From: a virus
Virus record (IMG/VR): IMGVR_UViG_3300021475_000042
Span: 1 to 30,202 of that record
DNA: 30,202 nucleotides
Direction: 5' to 3' (one strand)
Part shown: positions 1,444 to 29,107 of the stretch, in pieces
How the letters are laid out: each line of letters opens with the position of its first letter
Position numbering within the stretch: position 1 is the first letter of the stretch
Program-made: the position numbers and the translations under genes
Notes under the pieces: model-generated
Told to the model about the DNA's origin: nothing
The model's input: the letters and a program-made list of their open reading frames with translations, nothing else
Databases searched by the model: none

Positions 1444-3132
1444 TTATGCGCTGCTGGTGTCAGCGATCAGGCCGTAGCTCACCAGCGCGGCGCATAGCGA
1501 CGCCAGCGCGGTGTTGCCGGCTTTCGCGCCGGTCACCGTGGGCTTGGCGATCGGTGTTGCCGCGTTGAAGCCGAGCGGCATGGTGGCGAATTGCAAACCG
1601 CCCGTGCCACTGAGGCCGAGTGTCGCGATGCCGGCCGTGCCTGTGCCGCTCGCAAAGTTAAACGCGTTCCGCGTCGTATCGCCGATGCGTAGCGCTGGCC
1701 CCACCATTGTATGCAGCGCAGCCGCAGCAGCCGTTGTCCAAAAGATTTCCATCCTTGCGCCGACTGGGATGGTGAACGTCGCGCCGCTGCCAAAACCGAC
1801 GATGATATTGAAGCCGCCCGTAGTGCCATTCCCTATGACCCAGCAGCGCTGATTGCCGGTGGTCGGCAGGGTGATGTTGCGATCGGCAGTTGTCGTGCCG
1901 GTAATAACGAGATTGCGGATCGATGCTTGCGCCATCGTCAGCACTGTGTCGGCGTCGCTGATCGCCACCGAGCCGTAGCCCTGCGAGAACCGCGTCACAA
2001 ATGCCGTGCTTGCGAGCGCGGTGTTGTCGGTGCCTTGCGCCGGAGTGATCGTGTTGGCGGTGATGCCGCTGCTGTTGAACGTGGCCACGTCGGTGCCACC
2101 GATATTCACCATAACGGCCGACGAGGAGGGCGAGACAATGTTAAGTCGGCTACTTGTGACATTGAACCCATACAGATTTTGGAACAATGCAATCCCGCGA
2201 GACAGATCGGTGACACCACCCGGCGCCAGCGTGTTGCCGAGCGATAGGCCGGCGCTCATCGTCACGGCGCCTGCGAACGTCACGGGGCCTGAATACGTGT
2301 GAGTGCCCGAGAACGTGCCCGCGAACGAGCCGCCATTGGAGAGAGTCAACGCGCCGGGGATTGTCGTGGCGCCCGTGCTTCGGATGATGGAGAACGCACT
2401 CCCCAGCGACGTTCCGGTATCGTCATACCGAAAGAGGTTAAAGTCGGAACCAACATTGCCGCCAGATTCGGCCGTCGCAGTTGCTTGCATTATCCATCGG
2501 CTAGATGAAGCTGACCGAAAAAGAATTTGTTTCCCCAAACCAGCGGGGCCATTGAGGGTAAACTGAGCGGTAATGCCGGTGTCCTGGCCTAAAGTGGTAT
2601 TTCCAAGCGATGCGCTGATTGTCACGACTCTCGTCGCACGATTGCCTACGATCAATGGGCCAGCATACGCCCCGGCGTCGTTGAAAGCACCAATGATCAA
2701 ATTAGAACCGGCATTGGCGCCTGACTCGGCTGAGGTATCTGCAAAGAAACTCCAGCGGGTGAGCGAAGCGGTTCGAAAAAGAAGTTGCCGCTGGGCGCCA
2801 ACGGCACCATTGATGGTAATGTTGGACGCTGCTGACGTTGCCGTGTCTAAACCAACGGACAACGGGCCGCTGAACCGCCCGCTGCCCGCCACATCGAACG
2901 TAAAGCCGGCACCCCCCGCCGTCCCGACGTTCAGCGCGCCATCGACTTGCAGATTGCCGGTGATTTCGCCGCCGACGATCGGCAGGAACGGCCCGTTGGC
3001 TGTCGCGGCTTGCAAGGCGGTGACGGCGGCTTGCAAGGTGGTGATTTCATCATGCGCGGTTTGAAAGTTACCGCGCACGCTCGCGGTGGTCGGGAAGCCG
3101 TAGACCGGCACCGTCGGGTCGATTGCTGACAT
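1444..3132 (-). CDS. Long tail fibre protein (562 aa)
   Basis: Residues 1-45 (MSAIDPTVPVYGFP..., with 'EITTLQAAVTALQAA') form an attachment segment with a short coiled coil. The rest is low-complexity Gly/Thr/Ser-rich beta sequence typical of fibre shafts. Two internal repeats are visible at about 104-170 and 190-257, sharing 'Q.LFR.AS..RW', 'SAESG.N.GS' and 'D.G'. A 'GTDNTALASTAFV' element and the closing 'AGNTALASLCAALVSYGLI' are common in phage fibre C-termini. It sits directly after the last Mu-like baseplate gene, the usual fibre position. Its N-terminus is clearly related to that of the 159-aa protein at 17797-18276. Likely role: host receptor contact at the baseplate. Confidence 0.85.
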   Translation of the reverse strand: MSAIDPTVPVYGFPTTASVRGNFQTAHDEITTLQAAVTALQAATANGPFLPIVGGEITGNLQVDGALNVGTAGGAGFTFDVAGSGRFSGPLSVGLDTATSAASNITINGAVGAQRQLLFRTASLTRWSFFADTSAESGANAGSNLIIGAFNDAGAYAGPLIVGNRATRVVTISASLGNTTLGQDTGITAQFTLNGPAGLGKQILFRSASSSRWIMQATATAESGGNVGSDFNLFRYDDTGTSLGSAFSIIRSTGATTIPGALTLSNGGSFAGTFSGTHTYSGPVTFAGAVTMSAGLSLGNTLAPGGVTDLSRGIALFQNLYGFNVTSSRLNIVSPSSSAVMVNIGGTDVATFNSSGITANTITPAQGTDNTALASTAFVTRFSQGYGSVAISDADTVLTMAQASIRNLVITGTTTADRNITLPTTGNQRCWVIGNGTTGGFNIIVGFGSGATFTIPVGARMEIFWTTAAAAALHTMVGPALRIGDTTRNAFNFASGTGTAGIATLGLSGTGGLQFATMPLGFNAATPIAKPTVTGAKAGNTALASLCAALVSYGLIADTSSA

Positions 3133-11826: not shown

Positions 11827-13299
11827 TTAGCTCTTGCGGAATTGCAGCAGGATCGCGATCTGCCGCAGTTGGTTCACCAGATCGACCGGCGCGAGGATTT
11901 TCACCAGCCCGTTGCCGGCGTTCTCCACCACGGTGGTCTTGGCGAACGTGTCGGCGTTCTGCACGTAGCCCGCCGCCTGCAGGGCGCGATACTCATTCAC
12001 CACGCTGGCCTTGATCATCGGCGCGTTGACGCAGTTGGAACCGGCGAGGATAGGCGTCGTGTCGCTCACCAGTTTCTTGCGCGCGTAGCGGGTCAGCAGG
12101 AAGTTGGAGAGGTCGCGCGCGACGAACATCAGCCCATACATCGTTTCTACATCGAGGTATGAGTTGTCGACCGCACCGGCGGCATTCTTCTGATACGTCG
12201 TGCACATGCGCTCGATCAGCACGGTGTTGTCCTGCTGTTCGCGTAGCGTGCTCATGCCGTCATACAGCAGCGTGTTGCGCTCCCCGAGGGTCCATCGCAG
12301 CGGCACCGGTGGGGCTTGGAGTGTGGTCGCGATGTATTGCAGCGGTAGGCCGGGATCGACCCGCAGGCTGGCGGCGCAGGAGGCGGTAATTTCAGCGGTA
12401 ACGATCCAGGCGGGATCAGGCATCCCTTGATAGGCGACCACCGACATGTGCTGGTCGTTGCGCGCGAGGCCAAACGCGGTGCACTGGCCAAGCGTGCCTT
12501 TGAAGGCCGAGAAGCAGCCGCCATAGATCATCTGTTCCCACGACCAGCGGCCAACATCATCGGCGAGGAACGTCTCCATCGCATTGAGCGAGGTTGTGTC
12601 GGTGTAGGGCAGGCCGATGAAATCGAACGGCACGCTGGACAGGTTCGCCAGTCCGTTGGTCAGGATCGGGTTAGCGGTGCCCCCCGACATGGCGACGATG
12701 GCCACGGTCACCCCTGGCACGTTGAACTCGCCCCCAGGTGCGCCCTGGTAGTTCATTTGCAGGTCGATGCCGTTGCCCGCCTCGCCCTTGTTGAGCGCGG
12801 TCAGGGTGATGACACCCGCCGCAGCGGCTTCACTCACGGGCAGGCTGGTCATGGTCGCAATCGCCGCCAACAGGTTCGCCGCGATGACGGTCGCGGTGTC
12901 TCCACTGGTGACCACGGATTGCACGCGTTGCCCGGCAATATAGAGGTTGAGCGTGCCGCTGGCGGTCGCGGTGCCGGTGATGGTCACCGTGCCATGCGCG
13001 GCGACGCCGGCCGGGTTGTCGGCGAGGGGCAGCAGATACAGCGTGCCGAACGGATCGCGCGCGAGGTAGCGCTCCGCCATCGCGTCGAGCATGGAGCCGG
13101 CGCCGCACGCCGCCTGCACCTGTGCCACGCTTTCAACGATGAAAGGCTGATCGGGTGTTGCGGACCCGGCAGCGGTGATCTGACCGAACAGCAGCGTCGT
13201 TTGATTGGCGACTCCGGTATTCGCCTGCGACGGGTCCATTTCGACATAGACGCCGGGAACCCGGTTGCTGGTCTGGTAGTAGGTGAAATTGATGCCCAT
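11827..13299 (-). CDS. Tail sheath protein, Mu gpL-like (490 aa)
   Basis: The N-terminus 'NFTYYQTSNRVPGVYVEMDPSQAN' and 'LLFGQITAAGSATPDQPFIVESVAQVQAACGAGSMLDAMAERYLARDPFGTLYLLPLAD' are the classic contractile sheath start. An inserted domain follows ('GTVTITGTATASGTLNLYIAGQRV...', about 107-205, the domain usual in the Mu-like subgroup). The polymerising core ends 'YLDVETMYGLMFVARDLSNFLLTRYARKKLVSDTTPI' and 'VKILAPVDLVNQLRQIAILLQFRKS'. Its presence makes this a contractile-tailed phage. The DUF2635 gene ends four bases upstream. Confidence 0.95.
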   Translation of the reverse strand: MGINFTYYQTSNRVPGVYVEMDPSQANTGVANQTTLLFGQITAAGSATPDQPFIVESVAQVQAACGAGSMLDAMAERYLARDPFGTLYLLPLADNPAGVAAHGTVTITGTATASGTLNLYIAGQRVQSVVTSGDTATVIAANLLAAIATMTSLPVSEAAAAGVITLTALNKGEAGNGIDLQMNYQGAPGGEFNVPGVTVAIVAMSGGTANPILTNGLANLSSVPFDFIGLPYTDTTSLNAMETFLADDVGRWSWEQMIYGGCFSAFKGTLGQCTAFGLARNDQHMSVVAYQGMPDPAWIVTAEITASCAASLRVDPGLPLQYIATTLQAPPVPLRWTLGERNTLLYDGMSTLREQQDNTVLIERMCTTYQKNAAGAVDNSYLDVETMYGLMFVARDLSNFLLTRYARKKLVSDTTPILAGSNCVNAPMIKASVVNEYRALQAAGYVQNADTFAKTTVVENAGNGLVKILAPVDLVNQLRQIAILLQFRKS

Positions 13300-13303
13300 C
13301 GCT

Positions 13304-13483
13304 TTAGGCCCCCTTCACAGTTTCTGGCGGCGGATCAGGATCAGCGGGCACCACATCGCCATCGCGTAAGCGACGCGCCCAATAGAGGTCGTGCTCGTTT
13401 ACCTCGCGGCCCTCTGGGGGCACCAAGGCGCCGGAACGTGGATCGCGCACCTGACGATCGGGCGCGCCGGGAATGACTTTCAT
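13304..13483 (-). CDS. DUF2635 protein before the sheath (59 aa)
   Basis: The start is the ATG at 13483 with AGGAGA upstream. The 59-aa product starts MKVIPGAPDRQVRDPRSGAL and contains 'PPEGREVNEHDLYWARRLRDGDVV', the full DUF2635 pattern (Mu gp38-like: 'RdP.tg..Lp.eGreV.....YW.RRL.DGDV'). In Mu-like phages this tiny gene lies directly before the sheath gene, exactly as here. Biochemical function is unknown; a role in sheath folding or assembly is plausible from its constant position. A second, diverged copy lies at 19389-19634. Confidence 0.85.
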   Translation of the reverse strand: MKVIPGAPDRQVRDPRSGALVPPEGREVNEHDLYWARRLRDGDVVPADPDPPPETVKGA

Positions 13484-13496: not shown

Positions 13497-16400
13497 CTAA
13501 ATGACCATGCGGCCCATTCGCCCCAGCAACAGATGGTTGTTGTTGATGCGAAGCTGATCGTGCCTGCCGGCGTAACCGAAGCCCGGTGGCACGGTGTCGG
13601 TGCCGAGGCGGAACACGTCGGCGACCACCGCCGCTGCCACGTTGGCGTCGGGAAAGGTCTGGCTGTAGTTCCCGAACGGCCCTTGATTGGAGGCGCCGTC
13701 ATAGCGGCCGATATAGCCAACGTCCCACATGCCGGAATACAGATGCACACCGCCACCACCGAGGCGGATCACGGTGTTGCAGAAGTCGCGCATTTCGTTC
13801 GCGCTCTGCTTCACGTCCTCCCATTGCGGCGGTCCCGTGCGCAGCCCCAGCCATATCTTGATGTTGGGGAAAAGATCGTGGAACGACCGGAACCCGGTGC
13901 GCGGGTCATAGGTGTTGCCCGCGTCATAGGTCATCGCGTGGATGCCATCGAGGCACGCCATCGCGGCGGGATCGAGCGATACGCAGATGTCATAGCCGCC
14001 ATTTTGCCCCACCGGCGGCGCATACACGTAGTCACCGATTGCGTATGCACCGACGTGTATACCGTCGAGATAGAGCAGCAACGGGCGCGGGATGCCGGCG
14101 CGCAGTGTCTTGATCGTCTGCACGAGTTCAGCGTCGGTGTAGCAGGTCACCGAACCGTCGGGATTGATGGTGCAGCGGTGATCAGGATCGAGGTTCGCTG
14201 ACAGGCACTCGTAATCGAGCACCACACCGTCAAGCGCCATGTCCTGTATGAACTTCAAGGTCGAGGCGACATTCGTCGCGTCCATGCCGCCCCACCCGTT
14301 GGGATCATATGGCTCGTTGTGCGCTTCCTCCGGGGTGTTCTGTTGCATACACACTAGAATTTTGATGCCAGGGGAGCGGGCGCGCAGCAGATCGAGCGTG
14401 GCGCGAAGCAATCGCGCATCGCCGGGGAAGTTCAGTCCGGTGGTCGGCTTCAGCGGGCTGTCGAGGTCAACATAGGTAAAGCGCGGGATCGCGAATGACA
14501 GCGCGACATGAGTGATTACGGTGGGGATGCGCGCCAGATAGAAATCATCGGGCACCAGTGTCGCCGGGTCCTTATTCGGCACGTCCTCCCAGGTTTCCCA
14601 ATACACGTGGAAGTCTTGTCCGTTCGGCACCAGCCTGCCCAGGTTGCTCGCGTTGCCGGCGCCCACGTCGGCGAGCTGCGCCGCCGCGCCGTTGCCGATC
14701 TTGTTCGGCACCGTCGTTACCTCGACCTGCATTTCAAGGATGACGCCGGCCATCGCGGCGTAGCCGTCCGCCGCAAGCAATAGGTTCTGCCCAGGCCCGC
14801 CGTAGGCTTGCCACATCCAGGCGTTGATTGACGGGCTGAGTAAGTTCTCCTCGATCAGCGACCAGCCATAATTCGGCGTCACGTTGCGTTTCGGAAAGAT
14901 GGCCGAGGCGAACGCGAGCAATAGCGAGCCGGGCACCGAGTCGCCGAAGCCGAAGTTTGCCGAGGTGCCGGAGACCGGGAGGGAGACACGCGCACCGACC
15001 ACGCCGGACAGCGATTTCAGCCCGATCAGATATACGGTTGTATAGCCCCAGTATCCGGTATGCCCCGAGACATACAGGGTCTGCGGGCCGTCCGGCGGGC
15101 GCGCAAGGAAGGCGATTTCCATCGCGGTCGACGTGTCGCTGTTGCGGACATCGAGGGCGTCACGCATCGCGAGAGGCACGTTGCCGTAGCGATAGGTGGC
15201 TGGGCCGAAATAGCTGTTATTGGTCCGCGCGGCGCACACGATCAGCAAGTCCGCGCCCTTGGCGTCGAATGTCGTGGTGCGGGTTTCCAACCCGATCGTG
15301 CCCATATCAACCAACGAGTGATTGGTGATCACCACCGAGCTTTTGGGCGCGGACACGCCCTTAAACAGCACCTCATAACCCATGTTGATCAGGTCAAAGT
15401 AAACCGTGTCTGAACTGAGGGTGATCGTCGCGGCGTCGCCGTCATTCGCGACCGGTGCGGTCAGGTGATAGGCAAAGATCGATTGATTGGCGCCGCTCGC
15501 GAAGCCGTCGTCAGTCCATCCGGCACTGTGCTGCAATGTCGCGAGCGTGTTGCCGAACAGCGTTCCGCCGACGAACGCAACCGCCGATTTGGCTTTCAAT
15601 CCGGGGATTGTCGCGGTGCCGGTGTTCACCCCGGCGTCATGCGCGCCGAACTCGCTGGGTTGCATCTCGCCCATGACGCCAGCGGAGTTGCCGAACGAAT
15701 GAACCGCGATCGAGGTGTAACCGTTGTAATTCGGATTGCAGTCGACAACGATGTTGCGCGCCCCGACCACGGCGTCTGCCAGCGGCAGCACCCATAGCGC
15801 GACGGCACCATTCGGCCCCGAGACCAGCATCGGCGAGGCGACCAGTTGCATGATCACGCCATCGAACGTGATGGTTGCGGGCGTGAGCGGGTCGGATGAC
15901 GCCCAGGCCAGCGTGACGACCAGCAGATCGGCTTGCTGACCCGGATCGAATGAGACCGTCTGGGGACTCGCGGCGTTGATGACGCCGAGCACAGCGGCGT
16001 GCGTGTTGATCACCTTGACGCCATCTTGTGGCAGCGGCGTGCCGGCGAGCACTTCATACGCCAGCACCAGCATCGTCCAGTAATTCGTCGGGTCGGTGAA
16101 GGTGCAACTCAGCGTGCCGGTTCCGCTGCTTTCGGCGACCGTCACGCTCTGGTCGGGTGCCGTCTTGGCGTCGGCGCGTGTCCAACTCGCACCGGTGACA
16201 GCGATGGTCGAGGGCGTGCCGCCGAAGAACGTATCGCCGACCACGCAACAGAGTGAGCCGACGTTGCCCGTGGTGATTTGCGTCGTGCCGGTGTTCACCG
16301 CTGCATCGTGCGTGCCGTATTCGTTGATGACGATCGGTGCCAATCGCTGATTGGTGCCGGCATAGGCGGCGATGCTGACCTGCGTGTTGCCGAGATAACC

Positions 16401-17399
16401 CGATGGCTGCACCACGAAGTGGCGCGCGGCGTTGTCCGGGCTGTAGAGCGGCAGCGTGTAAAGCGACAGGGCGCCGACTCTCGGGTCAACGCTTTGCGTC
16501 TGGTTGAGCGTCAGCGGTTCGCCGTCACAGGTGACCACCGGCGCATCGGGCACCTGATAGAGCGTATTGGCCCACCGCGTGAACCCGTTCGGCACAGCAC
16601 CGACGAAAGCCACGCTGTCATCGTCGCCCCAGTTTGTCGTGCCCAGTTTGGTGTTACCCTGACACAGCGCGGCGTCGCTACAGATCACCGGATACAGCAC
16701 GGTTGAGGATAGCCCGGAGGTGTCGAGGCCACCGGCGCCGGTGGCAGGATTGGCGGCGGGGTTGTTATTCCAGGTCGCGCCGTTGGTGACGTTGCGGAAC
16801 CACACGCGCTGCGCATTGGCGTCATAGGCGATCGCGATGACATCATTCGGTGCAAGCGTGTAATCGAGCCGTCCGATCGCTGCGCCATTCTTGACGATGT
16901 TCGGTGCACCGCCCCCAGGCGACAATCCGTTGCCGACGTAAAGCACCGCGTCCCATGCGGTGCACCAATAGTCGTTGGTCCCGGTGTCTTTCTGCACCAT
17001 GCCAACGGTGCCACTGGGGGCGCCGGTGACGCCGACAGCGAACTCCGCTGCGGCGGTGCAAAGCCCGATCATGAGGGCGTTAACCACCGCCTTGAACTCG
17101 AAATAGAACCTGCCTTCGTTGGTCCCCTGCCCAGCGCGGATGCCGCCGGCGGAAACCGGCGTCGCCCACGGATTGGCGCAATAGACGTCCCGGCCATTGT
17201 TCAGGAGGTTCCAGGTGCCGCCACCGTAATCGGTCGGCGACCACGCGTTGACCGGCCCAACGCTCGACTGGGCTTGATAGCCGACCGTGACCACGGCCAA
17301 TTGCGCGGCGGCGGTCGGGCTGAACGCGATGGAGAGTGGCGCGCCGACGCCGACCCCGATTGCTGTCGCGGTCAGGAGCGCAACGCGGCTGACCGCCAT
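13497..17399 (-). CDS. 1300-aa adhesin with SPRY-like insertion, beta-sandwich repeats and GH18-like glycosidase domain
   Basis: The start is the ATG at 17399, sharing one base with the upstream stop; the open frame above it is shadow. Three related beta-sandwich repeats lie at about 21-451, 452-678 and 708-890. They share 'F.p...adLlVVt', 'ALWVLPL....ar..vv...Y.G.t.iav' and 'E.G.HDA.VNTGT'. The first is interrupted by a SPRY/concanavalin-like domain (about 51-280: 'GRFYFEFKAV', 'IGLCTAA', 'NDVIAIAYDANAQRVWFRN'). The C-terminal ~370 residues resemble glycoside hydrolase family 18: 'IKILVCMQQN', 'DGVVLDYE' (D1057, D1062, E1064), 'GIHAMTYDAG' (1152-1161) and 'KIWLGLRTG'. The second Asp of the DxxDxDxE motif is Val1060, so activity is not certain. 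Likely a virion glycan-binding or glycan-degrading protein. It sits between the neck and sheath genes, not with the fibres. Confidence 0.75.
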   Translation of the reverse strand: MAVSRVALLTATAIGVGVGAPLSIAFSPTAAAQLAVVTVGYQAQSSVGPVNAWSPTDYGGGTWNLLNNGRDVYCANPWATPVSAGGIRAGQGTNEGRFYFEFKAVVNALMIGLCTAAAEFAVGVTGAPSGTVGMVQKDTGTNDYWCTAWDAVLYVGNGLSPGGGAPNIVKNGAAIGRLDYTLAPNDVIAIAYDANAQRVWFRNVTNGATWNNNPAANPATGAGGLDTSGLSSTVLYPVICSDAALCQGNTKLGTTNWGDDDSVAFVGAVPNGFTRWANTLYQVPDAPVVTCDGEPLTLNQTQSVDPRVGALSLYTLPLYSPDNAARHFVVQPSGYLGNTQVSIAAYAGTNQRLAPIVINEYGTHDAAVNTGTTQITTGNVGSLCCVVGDTFFGGTPSTIAVTGASWTRADAKTAPDQSVTVAESSGTGTLSCTFTDPTNYWTMLVLAYEVLAGTPLPQDGVKVINTHAAVLGVINAASPQTVSFDPGQQADLLVVTLAWASSDPLTPATITFDGVIMQLVASPMLVSGPNGAVALWVLPLADAVVGARNIVVDCNPNYNGYTSIAVHSFGNSAGVMGEMQPSEFGAHDAGVNTGTATIPGLKAKSAVAFVGGTLFGNTLATLQHSAGWTDDGFASGANQSIFAYHLTAPVANDGDAATITLSSDTVYFDLINMGYEVLFKGVSAPKSSVVITNHSLVDMGTIGLETRTTTFDAKGADLLIVCAARTNNSYFGPATYRYGNVPLAMRDALDVRNSDTSTAMEIAFLARPPDGPQTLYVSGHTGYWGYTTVYLIGLKSLSGVVGARVSLPVSGTSANFGFGDSVPGSLLLAFASAIFPKRNVTPNYGWSLIEENLLSPSINAWMWQAYGGPGQNLLLAADGYAAMAGVILEMQVEVTTVPNKIGNGAAAQLADVGAGNASNLGRLVPNGQDFHVYWETWEDVPNKDPATLVPDDFYLARIPTVITHVALSFAIPRFTYVDLDSPLKPTTGLNFPGDARLLRATLDLLRARSPGIKILVCMQQNTPEEAHNEPYDPNGWGGMDATNVASTLKFIQDMALDGVVLDYECLSANLDPDHRCTINPDGSVTCYTDAELVQTIKTLRAGIPRPLLLYLDGIHVGAYAIGDYVYAPPVGQNGGYDICVSLDPAAMACLDGIHAMTYDAGNTYDPRTGFRSFHDLFPNIKIWLGLRTGPPQWEDVKQSANEMRDFCNTVIRLGGGGVHLYSGMWDVGYIGRYDGASNQGPFGNYSQTFPDANVAAAVVADVFRLGTDTVPPGFGYAGRHDQLRINNNHLLLGRMGRMVI

Positions 17400-17800
17400 C
17401 AGTCGCCCATCGGCACGGTGTAGGTGAACGACATGACCTCGACCACATCGCCGAATAGCAACGCGGGATTGTCGACGATGATTTCCCCGCCGCCACCGGG
17501 GCCGCTGACGATCACCACCAAATAGATCGTGTTGCCGTGATCGCGGAACCGCCCCCAGGTGGCCAATCCAGCCGCAACCGTGGTGCCGAACCACTGCCCC
17601 GCAAGCGTCAACACACCGTTCACCGCCGCGCCGTAGGCTGCCATTGGCAACTTCATAGTCGCGAGCAACGTCCCCTTGCTGACATCCTCCGGGGTGTCAC
17701 CGGGCGAGCCGCCATAGAGGTCGAGGTAACCGTCGTTGAATGTCGTTGCGATGGTGTTCGCCAGTTGGTTCGCCAGCGTCGCCGATAATTTTTGCGTCAC
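17399..17800 (-). CDS. Small beta-rich virion protein, putative fibre-associated (133 aa)
   Basis: The start is the GTG at 17800, giving a GTGA overlap with the gene upstream. The protein reads 'TQKLSATLANQLANTIATTF', then 'DLYGGSPGDTPEDVSKGTLLATMKLPMAAYGAAVNGVLTLAGQW', then 'WGRFRDHGN' and 'PALLFGDVVEVMSFTYTVPMG'. I recognise this as a widespread short phage protein: helix, 'l.iytG..p...d....GtlLat..lp', 'agWfR.yd', and a closing 'G..vtitsft.t.p'. It often sits with tail-fibre genes. Its biochemical role is unknown to me. It lies in a cassette with a fibre-like protein upstream and the 1300-aa adhesin downstream. Confidence 0.7.
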   Translation of the reverse strand: MTQKLSATLANQLANTIATTFNDGYLDLYGGSPGDTPEDVSKGTLLATMKLPMAAYGAAVNGVLTLAGQWFGTTVAAGLATWGRFRDHGNTIYLVVIVSGPGGGGEIIVDNPALLFGDVVEVMSFTYTVPMGD

Positions 17801-18276
17801 GGCGGCGCCTGCAACGCGATGGCGGCGAACCACGTGGCGCCAGCGTCAAGCGTGCTGATCTGCACAATGTCGGTGGACCCCGGCACGAGACTCAACGAGG
17901 GCGCGAACCCGCCTTGCCAGCGGAAGGATGCCGGGAAGGTCATATCCCGCGATCCGGTGGCGTCCTGCGTGATCGCGATCAGGCCGGTGACAAGCACCCC
18001 GGGCGCCGTGCTGGTGTCGACGGTCAGGGCGATTGTCGGGCTGGCAATCGTCAAGGCGTATATGCGCGTCGTGGTGAAATCGAGAGTGAGCGTTGCGGCG
18101 GTCACGCTGCCGAGTGAGTCGACCTGCGGGTTGATCGTGCCATACGCGGCTTGCAGTGACGCCATCGATGCCTGCAACGCCTCGATCTCGGCTTTCGCTG
18201 CCGCGAAATTGGCGCGCATGTCGGCGGTGAAAGCGTGCGTCGTTGTCGGCTTGGTCGGATCAATCGCGCTAACCAT
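17797..18276 (-). CDS. Short fibre-like protein with coiled-coil attachment segment (159 aa)
   Basis: The start is the ATG at 18276, overlapping the tail-terminator stop by eight bases; the ribosome site is weak. The N-terminus MVSAIDPTKPTTTHAFTADM continues as 'RANFAAAKAEIEALQASMASLQAAYG', a coiled coil that matches the start of the 562-aa tail fibre. The C-terminal part 'LVTGLIAITQDATGSRDMTFPASFRWQGGFAPSLSLVPGSTDIVQI' is a small beta domain found at the ends of many phage fibres. It probably trimerises. It opens the adhesin cassette at 18.3-13.5 kb and could attach it to the virion (inference). Confidence 0.75.
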   Translation of the reverse strand: MVSAIDPTKPTTTHAFTADMRANFAAAKAEIEALQASMASLQAAYGTINPQVDSLGSVTAATLTLDFTTTRIYALTIASPTIALTVDTSTAPGVLVTGLIAITQDATGSRDMTFPASFRWQGGFAPSLSLVPGSTDIVQISTLDAGATWFAAIALQAPP

Positions 18277-18871
18277 TGGGCCACGGACCATCGGTTGCTG
18301 GCGGATACGGTGGATCCCCGGTGGGCACGCGGATGACGGCGGGCGGCGTGTCGCCCGGCTGCACCGGCGCCTTGAAGATGTCCACCTCGATCGCGGCGAG
18401 TGGGATCGATTGGACCTGGACGCCATCTTGCGAACCGAGTTGCCAATCGAGGCCATACTCAAATTGGTAAAACGAGCGAGCGCGGTCGAGTTCGAGCCAA
18501 CGGGCGGTGCGGGTATAAACGCCCTTCGACATGCGGGGGCAGTGGTCCCGCAGGATCATGTTGAGCACCGAGGCGTTTAGCTGTTCCTCGATCAAGTCCA
18601 ACTGCATCGCGGGTGCCTGACCGCGTCGGTCGGTTTGCGCGTCCAGCTCGACGATGATGCCGACGTATTTGTGCACAATCTGCAAGAGGTCGCCGCCCAA
18701 TCCTATGTTTTCGTCGGCCTCCTGACCCAGCGGGACCACATAGGCGGCAGGCAGCGCAAGCGACGTATTGTAATTCTTCAGCCCGGCATTGAACTCGGCG
18801 GCGCCTGCGACGCGGCCGGCGAACAGCGGCGCGTTGGCGCGTATCTGCAAAATGAATGTGTCGATAATCAC
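18269..18871 (-). CDS. Tail terminator/completion-like protein (200 aa)
   Basis: The start is set at the GTG at 18871 because it makes a GTGA overlap with the upstream stop and gives 'IIDTFILQIRANAPLFAGRVAGAAEF', the typical beginning of phage tail terminator proteins ('I...L...l..l.grV.Gaae...a......lPaayV.P'). 'LPAAYVVPLGQEADEN' and 'IVHKYVGIIVELDAQTDRRG' continue the pattern. A GTG at 18886 is an alternative. The protein should cap the tail tube and form the joining surface to the neck. The C-terminal 40 residues are Pro-rich. It follows the gp10-like gene, as in many head-tail modules. Confidence 0.75.
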   Translation of the reverse strand: MIIDTFILQIRANAPLFAGRVAGAAEFNAGLKNYNTSLALPAAYVVPLGQEADENIGLGGDLLQIVHKYVGIIVELDAQTDRRGQAPAMQLDLIEEQLNASVLNMILRDHCPRMSKGVYTRTARWLELDRARSFYQFEYGLDWQLGSQDGVQVQSIPLAAIEVDIFKAPVQPGDTPPAVIRVPTGDPPYPPATDGPWPNG

Positions 18872-19392
18872 TTGGTCTGCTTCCACGTCAGCGACTTGGC
18901 GAACGCCTCGCGGAGCCGGCGGGTGATGTTCGGCGCCTCCTGGTCCATCACGCGATCGAGGAACGGGCGAGGTTCCAGCACGCGCGTCGTGTAGACGCCC
19001 TTGGCGCGCATCCTGCGGCCGGTGCGGCGGTTAATCGGCTTCACTGAACGGGACCCCGGATTGCCACCGCCCCGCGCGCCGACTTCGAGGAACAGCGCAT
19101 AGAACTGACGGGCGCGGACGGCGAAGCCCTCGGCGCTCTTGAATACGTAAGTCTTGAGGGACCCGCGTAGCCGCCCTGTGGGCCTCACTGGCGGGTTGCC
19201 CGGCATCGAGGCGCGATAGGTTCCGCGACCGGCCGGAAGGCGGTAGGTGCGCCCCCCGCCGTCGCTGGCGTTGATCAGGCGGGATGTCTTGGTCCGCACA
19301 TCGTTGCCGGCGGCACGCATCAGCGCGCGCATGGGCTTCTTATCGATCGCGACCTCGCCCCAGCTTGTCACCGTCAGCTTGAGGTCGCTCAC
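18868..19392 (-). CDS. HK97 gp10-like head-tail/tail component (174 aa)
   Basis: A GTG start at 19392 overlaps the upstream stop as GTGA. The protein is strongly basic. It shows 'GEVAIDKKPMRALMRAAGNDVRTKTSRLI', 'PVRPTGRLRGSLKTYVFKSAEGFAVRARQFYALFLEVGARGGG' and 'VLEPRPFLDRVMDQEAPNITRRLREAF'. The 'GrLr.Sl', 'YA.flE.GtR' and 'arPFL...' elements are those of the HK97 gp10/neck protein family. An unusual insert of Arg and Gly residues ('RSVKPINRRTGRRMRAKG') lies between them. Expected to sit in the neck between head-closure and tail-terminator rings. Confidence 0.75.
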   Translation of the reverse strand: MSDLKLTVTSWGEVAIDKKPMRALMRAAGNDVRTKTSRLINASDGGGRTYRLPAGRGTYRASMPGNPPVRPTGRLRGSLKTYVFKSAEGFAVRARQFYALFLEVGARGGGNPGSRSVKPINRRTGRRMRAKGVYTTRVLEPRPFLDRVMDQEAPNITRRLREAFAKSLTWKQTK

Positions 19393-27856: not shown

Positions 27857-28358
27857 CCCGGATCACTTTGAGAGCGGACCACGGATTGGCCACGATGTCA
27901 TCACCGCCCTTGTCCGCGTCGGGAACGTCGGCGTGCAGGCGCGGGCGTGCGGCGGGCGTAAAGCCCAGGTCCTGCGCGACGCGGATCATGGTCTTGGCCG
28001 TCTTGTCGAGGATGTCGTTGTAAGGCGACGGCATCAGGCCCATCGGTCCCTTGACCAACAACTTTAGTTTCGTATCTTGATCGATCATCGCCTGCATGAG
28101 CCGGGCGGTGTTCCAGCGGTCGCGGGCCTCGACCCAGACCATGAGGATGTCGCGATCAATCAGCTTGATCAGGCCGCGCGGCATGTGCGCGACGGCGTAA
28201 CGCCAGACCGCTTCCTGGTTGTCGGTCAGGTCCGAAGGCGGTTCGTCGAGGTCGCCGAGTGCGATCGGCTCACGCTTGCGGTCGCGGCCATGCTTGGTCG
28301 CGTTGAAGGTGCCTTGCACGTGATGCAGTGCGGTGGGCTTCGGGCGGCGTCCGGCCAT
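27840..28358 (-). CDS. terS: Terminase small subunit, P27 family (172 aa)
   Basis: The N-terminus MAGRRPKPTALHHVQGTFNA with 'KHGRDRKREPIALGDLDEPPSDLTDNQEAVWRYAVAHMPRGLIKLIDRDILMVWVEA' is the P27-type small terminase pattern. 'KGPMGLMPSPYNDILDKTAKTMIRVAQDLGFTPAARPRL' is the family's conserved C-terminal motif. It recognises the packaging site and regulates TerL. The ATG shares one base with the stop of the glycosyltransferase gene, so terminase translation is coupled to the upstream accessory genes. The short tail after 'ARPRL' is longer than in many relatives and overlaps the TerL start. Confidence 0.92.
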   Translation of the reverse strand: MAGRRPKPTALHHVQGTFNATKHGRDRKREPIALGDLDEPPSDLTDNQEAVWRYAVAHMPRGLIKLIDRDILMVWVEARDRWNTARLMQAMIDQDTKLKLLVKGPMGLMPSPYNDILDKTAKTMIRVAQDLGFTPAARPRLHADVPDADKGGDDIVANPWSALKVIRGGKTG

Positions 28359-29107
28359 TAGTTGATAATCTCAATCGCCCAGTCGTTGGTGGAGCGTTCC
28401 ACCGCGCGGATCACGCCGGGATAGGCGCGGGTCAGGCGGCGGATCGCGTCGCGTTCCATCGCTTGCGTGCGGTAATCATGACAACCGCCCTTGTCGTGCC
28501 AGTGCGAGTTTTGCCAGTAGAGGTAACGGGCGGCGACCACGCCCCCGTCCTCGCTGATCAGGCGGGCACAGAGTTCGTAATCCTCTTTCACCGGATACGC
28601 CTCATCGAACAGCGTGCGGCCGTCGTTGATGATGCCGCAGCACGAGGCGGTGATGTAGCTGCGGAAGCGGAAGGGGAAATACGGATACCAAGCGCGCAAC
28701 GAGCTTTCGGTCGACACGCCCCACACGCGGTAGTTCATCTGTTCGGTCACCTCGAACAGCTTGGCGAACTCGGTCAACCACGTGGCTTCGTCCAGCGGCG
28801 TTTTCAGCGAGGAATGGTCGAACACCTGGATCCAGCCCTGTTCGCGCACGTCGTCATCGATCATCACCACGCGCGGCGTGTCGGTGTGGCGGAGTATCCA
28901 GTTGCGGGTCGCGGTGATGCCACGGATCGCGTCGGGGACGGGCACCACGCTGCGGGCGCCTGCGTTGGCGTAGGCGGCGACCTCGAGCGCAGGGCAGTAG
29001 ACGGTGGCGGACGGCAGCACGTCCAGCGTATGCACCTTGCCGGCCCTCCCCTTGGACGGTATCGCGATTACCATCGGTGCGGGGGCGACGCGCGGGCGGC
29101 GTGTCAC
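28358..29107 (-). CDS. GT-A glycosyltransferase, TET-associated-like (putative DNA base glycosylation)
   Basis: A GTG start at 29107 makes a GTGA overlap with the gene upstream (249 aa). The GT-A fold start 'MVIAIPSKGRAGKVHTLDVLP' is followed by 'GITATRNWILRH' and 'RVVMIDDDV', the last giving the metal-binding DxD. A later 'FDEAYPVKEDYELCARLISEDGGVVAARYLYW' and 'HWHDKGGCHDYRT' complete the pattern. I associate this pattern ('IPS.GR....T...LP', 'GI..tRNWIL', 'mIDDD', 'KEDYElc.r') with the TET-associated glycosyltransferases that sugar-modify oxidised bases in phage DNA. No TET/JBP dioxygenase is in the window, so the acceptor could be another DNA base or a virion/cell-surface component. Confidence 0.65.
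   Translation of the reverse strand: MTRRPRVAPAPMVIAIPSKGRAGKVHTLDVLPSATVYCPALEVAAYANAGARSVVPVPDAIRGITATRNWILRHTDTPRVVMIDDDVREQGWIQVFDHSSLKTPLDEATWLTEFAKLFEVTEQMNYRVWGVSTESSLRAWYPYFPFRFRSYITASCCGIINDGRTLFDEAYPVKEDYELCARLISEDGGVVAARYLYWQNSHWHDKGGCHDYRTQAMERDAIRRLTRAYPGVIRAVERSTNDWAIEIIN

Follow-up and report, generated by a model that had tools for sequence, protein, structure and literature searches.

A protein of 1300 amino acids (aa) is encoded on the minus strand of a soil phage, the virus record IMGVR_UViG_3300021475_000042 (IMG/VR, positions 1 to 30,202), and its C-terminal part raises the question of whether a phage can carry a sugar-cutting enzyme of chitinase type on its particle, and what such an enzyme would be used for. 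The whole stretch of 30,202 nucleotides (nt) was analysed and is called the window below. An earlier note, made from the sequence, had assigned the C-terminal part to glycoside hydrolase family 18 (GH18) and the protein to the virion. The reading we favour, at a probability of roughly 0.6, is that the gene encodes a virion-borne, modular GH18-type depolymerase, probably directed against an amino-sugar exopolysaccharide or capsule, an activity and a substrate which we infer.

Relationship of the C-terminal domain to GH18

The two motifs behind the earlier assignment, DGVVLDYE and GIHAMTYDAG, were found on the minus strand in the 1300-aa protein as described, each with a single occurrence in six-frame translation, and the residues had been given exactly: D1062 and E1064 are present, and Val1060 stands at the second Asp of the DxxDxDxE signature. 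The stop codon of the open reading frame lies at 13499-13497, and the frame stays open upstream as far as 17594. As the ATG at 17399 shares bases with the stop codon of the preceding gene (TGATG), and a like overlap recurs where the homologue in the prophage L120 starts, we take this ATG as the start.

The comparison of phages covers four lineages only. The two closest to the window, the soil phage contigs L003 and L004, are near-identical to each other, and their domain is 75% identical to that of the window. For L252, a different phage, the identity is 44% and the motif reads DGIVIDYE, again with Val, and for L120, which belongs to a sequenced isolate, it is 39% with the canonical DGVDVDYE. 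Down to this level of identity D1062, Y1063, E1064 and the MTYDAG core are conserved in all four homologues; D1057 is replaced by Gln in L003 and L004, and the first Asp is thus not conserved. As the motifs are kept across the phage homologues and purifying selection acts on the domain (see below), they are more than chance resemblances.

With L120 as query we retrieved GH18-annotated proteins of Dolichospermum and Azospirillum plasmids (L241-L243). Aligned with the window domain, the Dolichospermum protein gave 24% identity over about 340 aa (expectation value, E, 8e-35) and the Azospirillum protein 28% (E 4e-31), where the E-values are those of single comparisons and the alignments cover nearly the full domain length. 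The Dolichospermum protein is itself a clear member of the Pfam GH18 family (5e-16). Besides the nearly full-length homology, these bacterial proteins share with the window domain a Cys pair after beta-4 and the C-terminal part; they differ in that each stands alone, at a length of 313-349 aa, and has the second Asp of the canonical motif. Further, a profile of three sequences searched against all PDB sequences returned GH18 enzymes as its top six matches, the best being the class III chitinase 7xmh (E 2e-6), with 4rl3 and 3co4 also among the best, and L120 showed a weak match to the TIM barrel of EndoS. The catalytic D-x-E residues D1062 and E1064 are invariant in the six aligned proteins, and so is the Tyr of MxYD. 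Chitinases of class III type and the endoglycosidases EndoS and EndoE have a common TIM-barrel order with D-x-E on beta-4 and MxYD on beta-6, and the window protein differs from them by the Val at the second Asp, an extra loop after beta-3 and its build as a multidomain phage protein. Judged by sequence, the C-terminal domain is a distant GH18 relative, and the relationship proposed earlier is borne out by the alignments of the relatives, the PDB profile and the retained catalytic Glu and Asp together with MxYD.

The earlier note had also named a TIM barrel as the fold to look for, and here the outcome was divided. An AlphaFold model based on a four-sequence alignment showed the alternating strand and helix order of a (beta/alpha)8 barrel, placing DGVVLDYE on strand 4, MTYD on strand 6 and GGVHLYSGMWD on strand 8, but the model is weak (predicted local distance difference test, pLDDT, 51; predicted template modelling score, pTM, 0.52). 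The true GH18 protein L136 aligned wrongly and was therefore omitted from the folding alignment, and a single-sequence model was discarded (pLDDT 33). When the model was compared with the PDB by Foldseek, plant and bacterial GH18 chitinases ranked first with template modelling (TM) scores of about 0.3, hence we regard the fold comparison as supporting and not decisive.

Direct searches of annotated phages with the domain, the whole protein or the product of the adjoining gene p144 gave no match, and peptide-pattern scans of species genomes, which reach close relatives only, were likewise without match. Scanning viral contigs for motifs gave about 160 loci, of which almost all were chance matches (for instance polymerases); the only new GH18 candidates were L120 and L136, with L250 reached via a second motif. 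The L136 gene (510-3293, minus strand, on a soil virus contig) encodes a 928-aa protein whose GH18 domain is canonical (Pfam 4.6e-26). This protein seems to have a signal peptide and is possibly a secreted auxiliary enzyme.

The cargo slot and the p144 partner

Read from right to left on the minus strand, the genes of the window are ordered as terminase, portal, protease, head protein, connectors, neck protein and a 205-aa protein, followed by an adaptor, p144, the GH18 protein, a DUF2635-type gene, sheath and tube, and then by tape measure, hub, baseplate, spike and fibre (Table 1). The interval between neck and sheath, where the earlier note had put the gene, is thereby confirmed as gene order; a physical place at the neck does not follow from it, since gene order gives no place in the particle and the adaptor that goes with the gene has an N-terminal anchor of the type found on the distal tail spike, and a reading as neck appendage was dropped.

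The distance from the 205-aa gene to the sheath was measured in the 44 close relatives that have both. It does not exceed 351 nt in 29 of the 44, lies at 0.7-1.0 kb in 6 and reaches 1.9-4.8 kb in the other 9. The large inserts encode anchored fibres, spikes of pectate-lyase/beta-helix type, of which one has an S74 chaperone, and a protein that resembles a ceramidase. A beta-helix gene of L023 was left out of the count as it lies upstream of the neck gene. Near-empty in most relatives and filled with varied large inserts in others, the interval is an exchangeable cargo slot, and the GH18 gene sits in it.

Directly upstream of the GH18 gene, p144 has homologues at the same position in L004 (9e-66), L252 (1e-36) and L120 (2e-19), so that it stands ahead of the GH18 gene in each of the four lineages; homology suggests that its true start is nearer 17797. 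The L252 neighbourhood includes a head-closure protein, and the L120 GH18 protein is preceded by a tape-measure gene and fused to a C-terminal phage domain (phrog_8917). The pair of p144 and GH18 gene is thus carried by three phage types. The same partner gene in three phage types, along with the swappable slot, makes the GH18 protein probably an exchangeable tool with which a phage cuts its way through the bacterial sugar coat.

The adaptor gene stands ahead of p144. Its N-terminal anchor (MVSAIDPTKPTTTHAFTADMRANFAAAKAEIEALQ) is common to most slot fibres and matches the canonical tail spike of the window more weakly; the anchor forms a separate small gene in the window, L004 and L010, and the N-terminus of a large fibre in most other cargo. 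The C-terminal domain of the adaptor recurs upstream of p144 in L004, and the gene ahead of p144 in L252 has an ending that by eye reads like the adaptor's, after a different beginning with a weak LtfC-like match. From the operon position, the cargo slot and the p144 partner, the 1300-aa protein is very probably a virion component, as had been claimed for it.

Comparison with the 841-aa protein of L252 suggests a core of beta-sandwich-like repeats plus enzyme, to which extra repeats and a SPRY-like insert would have been added in the window. The insert (phrog_10080, E 2e-5; SPRY below threshold, E 0.098) is absent from L004, and the N-terminus aligns to L004 on either side of it. Both the repeat and the SPRY assignments come from inspection of the sequence and from weak matches.

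Table 1. Features of the GH18 gene and its surroundings in the window
Feature	Position (nt)	Strand	Residues	Remarks
1300-aa GH18 protein	13497..17399	-		N-terminal beta-sandwich repeats and SPRY-like insert, C-terminal GH18-type domain
GH18-type domain	13575..14624	-	926-1275	Phage and bacterial alignments, PDB profile search, low-confidence (beta/alpha)8 model
DGVVLDYE	14208..14231	-	1057-1064	Catalytic strand beta-4; Val1060 replaces second Asp
GIHAMTYDAG	13917..13946	-	1152-1161	Beta-6 (MxYD)
Tandem beta-sandwich-like repeats	14685..16544	-	286-905	Common to L004, L252 and L120; type inferred from sequence
SPRY-like (lectin-type?) domain	16545..17261	-	47-285	Inserted in first beta unit
p144 partner	17399..17833	-		phrog_3758, virion structural protein
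159-aa adaptor	17797..18276	-		Tail-fibre N-terminal anchor motif and C-terminal beta domain
205-aa neck-region protein	18269..18886	-		Left edge of slot; orthologues used to size slot
DUF2635-type small gene (59 aa)	13304..13483	-		Right edge of slot; precedes sheath in relatives; named after annotated phages
Tail sheath	11827..13299	-		phrog_165, E 9e-157
Canonical distal tail spike	1444..3132	-		phrog_29706; N-terminal anchor related to adaptor's, E 0.0034

Some other slots and loci should also be noted. The slot of L010 (2943-5230) is filled by a fibre anchor of 87 aa that stands alone and, behind it, a protein of 650 aa. The latter has a neutral/alkaline ceramidase domain (Pfam 1e-8), not a type of enzyme one would expect in a phage appendage. 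In L012 (5245-9375) the slot contains the gene of an anchored fibre and two more genes whose products have no family match; the middle gene of the three looked by eye like a TIM-barrel glycosidase, a likeness for which family and PDB searches gave no support. One 83-kb viral contig (IMGVR_UViG_3300046536_000173) carries two separate sheath loci, L048 and L050, one slot being empty and the other containing a fibre. In L002, L029, L030 and L045 the DUF2635-type gene is separated from the sheath by about 500 nt, enough for an extra gene, and this gap is a possible second insertion point. Beside the small terminase subunit of the window, the gene at 28358-29107 (minus strand) matches an alpha-glucosyltransferase family (phrog_842, E 1.6e-20), and is a possible modifier of phage DNA or of sugars on the host surface.

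Altered catalytic motif and rival explanations

The second Asp of DxxDxDxE is Val in the window, L003, L004 and L252, and Asp in L120 and the bacterial relatives. This Asp has been termed the stabiliser assistant of the GH18 motif (PMC3701571), and the activity of ChiB drops strongly when D140, D142 or E144 is mutated (PMC7334433). Between the window and L004, the nonsynonymous rate (dN) of the GH18 domain is 0.19 and the synonymous rate (dS) 1.56, which is near saturation, giving a ratio of 0.12, as against 0.33 in the beta-repeat region. In view of this strong purifying selection we read the domain as functioning with altered catalysis rather than decayed.

Several points weigh against a virion-borne depolymerase. 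With Val at the second Asp, and with ChiB mutants losing much of their activity, weak or no hydrolysis is possible. The window domain by itself stays under the cut-off of Pfam PF00704 (14.3 vs 29.6 bits, E 0.032). L120 with its canonical motif is also under it, and the Azospirillum proteins are narrowly so, hence it seems that the Pfam model misses this branch, and we consider the GH18 assignment secured by the relatives (L003/L004, L252, L120 and the bacterial proteins) despite the low score. The structure model is poor in its pLDDT, pTM and TM-scores alike. Further, the virion location is a very probable one that follows from operon, slot and p144, and the docking of adaptor, p144 and enzyme is proposed from gene order.

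The main rival, which we consider unlikely, is a catalytically weak or dead GH18 barrel that binds an amino-sugar receptor uncut in the manner of a chitolectin, so that the protein would be a receptor-binding appendage. The change of the stabiliser-assistant Asp to Val in two phage lineages (window/L003/L004 and L252) would fit this, and so would the beta-8 position, which is Trp in chitinases and reads as Tyr in the window. However, every phage homologue retains the catalytic Glu, the adjacent Asp and the Tyr-Asp of MxYD, and the loss of the catalytic Glu that marks chitolectins such as YKL-40 was not found here, E1064 being invariant. The GH18 domain is moreover the most constrained part of the protein, and other slot cargo appears enzymatic.

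Some GH18 enzymes use peptidoglycan-type substrates, and a tail-associated hydrolase of the YaaH/SleL kind could open the cell wall at DNA entry. We hold this to be quite improbable: the tape-measure protein of the window has a match to an endolysin family (phrog_90), so that there is less need for a murein function of the GH18 domain, and the gene at the tape-measure position of a related phage is annotated as tail lysozyme. The cargo of the slot consists of fibres and spikes rather than murein hydrolases, and the locus of the bacterial relatives is one of exopolysaccharide, even if the depolymerase of phage TP-84 is also reported to resemble the YaaH superfamily (PMC10131341). About as improbable is a lysogenic-conversion or auxiliary gene whose chitinase-like product is secreted for the benefit of the host, outside the virion. 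The first 34 residues have the superficial look of a signal peptide, and an apparently secreted GH18 protein exists in the soil virus contig L136, but the homologous N-termini of L004 and L252 are unlike signal peptides and match an internal repeat. The gene also overlaps translationally with the virion gene p144 inside a structural operon, and the L120 homologue stands behind the tape measure, fused to another phage protein domain.

Proposed function and known systems

In the depolymerase that we propose, a beta-sandwich stalk with an added SPRY-like sugar-binding module would bear the C-terminal TIM-barrel glycosidase, and attachment to the particle would go via the products of the two preceding genes, p144 and the adaptor with the tail-fibre anchor of this phage group. 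At adsorption the enzyme would cleave a polymer of N-acetylamino sugars in the cell envelope, be it exopolysaccharide, capsule or O-antigen. The mechanism would be the substrate-assisted retaining one of GH18, in which E1064 would serve as acid/base, and D1062 and Y1158 would hold the N-acetyl group in position. As Val1060 removes the stabiliser-assistant Asp, a rate or pH profile unlike that of chitinases may be expected. The genes of the Azospirillum relatives adjoin exopolysaccharide biosynthesis genes, which favours exopolysaccharide over chitin as the probable substrate; no finding spoke for nodulation factors. Further, we tentatively speculate, although we think it rather less than an even chance, that adaptor, p144 and GH18 enzyme form a mobile cassette which moves between unrelated tailed phages, fitted by a change of anchor or by direct fusion, and that the Val branch is active on a non-chitin amino-sugar exopolysaccharide.

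The closest known counterpart by description, not by alignment, is the capsule depolymerase of Geobacillus phage TP-84, a protein of about 112 kDa reported from virions, with a GH18-like C-terminal domain and acting on the host capsule (PMC10131341). Both are large phage proteins with the GH18-like domain at the C-terminus, although the virion location of the window protein is a predicted one, and TP-84 is a siphophage of a Gram-positive host whose enzyme has a YaaH-type resemblance. Beta repeats, a p144 partner and Val at the second Asp are not reported in the available text of that source. A GH18-type enzyme on a phage, called unusual in the earlier note, is in the light of TP-84 less so than was supposed. 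With the modular tailspike depolymerases of phages the window protein shares the exchangeable enzyme part, the slot of its relatives holding anchored fibres and beta-helix spikes, whereas its anchor is a separate gene and its enzyme a GH18-type barrel instead of a beta-helix. A TIM-barrel-like domain has also been assigned to a tail protein of alphaproteobacterial particles, the RcGTA megatron (PMC8601537), but this is a baseplate protein and not an appendage, and a Pfam scan of the window protein, with families up to E 1 considered, gave no match to GTA_TIM.

New in the present locus are a GH18 branch whose second Asp is replaced by Val, p144 as a conserved partner, an anchor encoded by a gene of its own, and the cargo slot. 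The window thus presents a candidate GH18-type depolymerase with an altered catalytic motif, from a branch that escapes standard Pfam thresholds, and p144 may be the means by which the enzyme is loaded. The slot by the tail sheath is a site where soil phages swap receptor-binding and sugar-cutting proteins, which bears on the adaptation of phages to bacteria whose exopolysaccharides vary.

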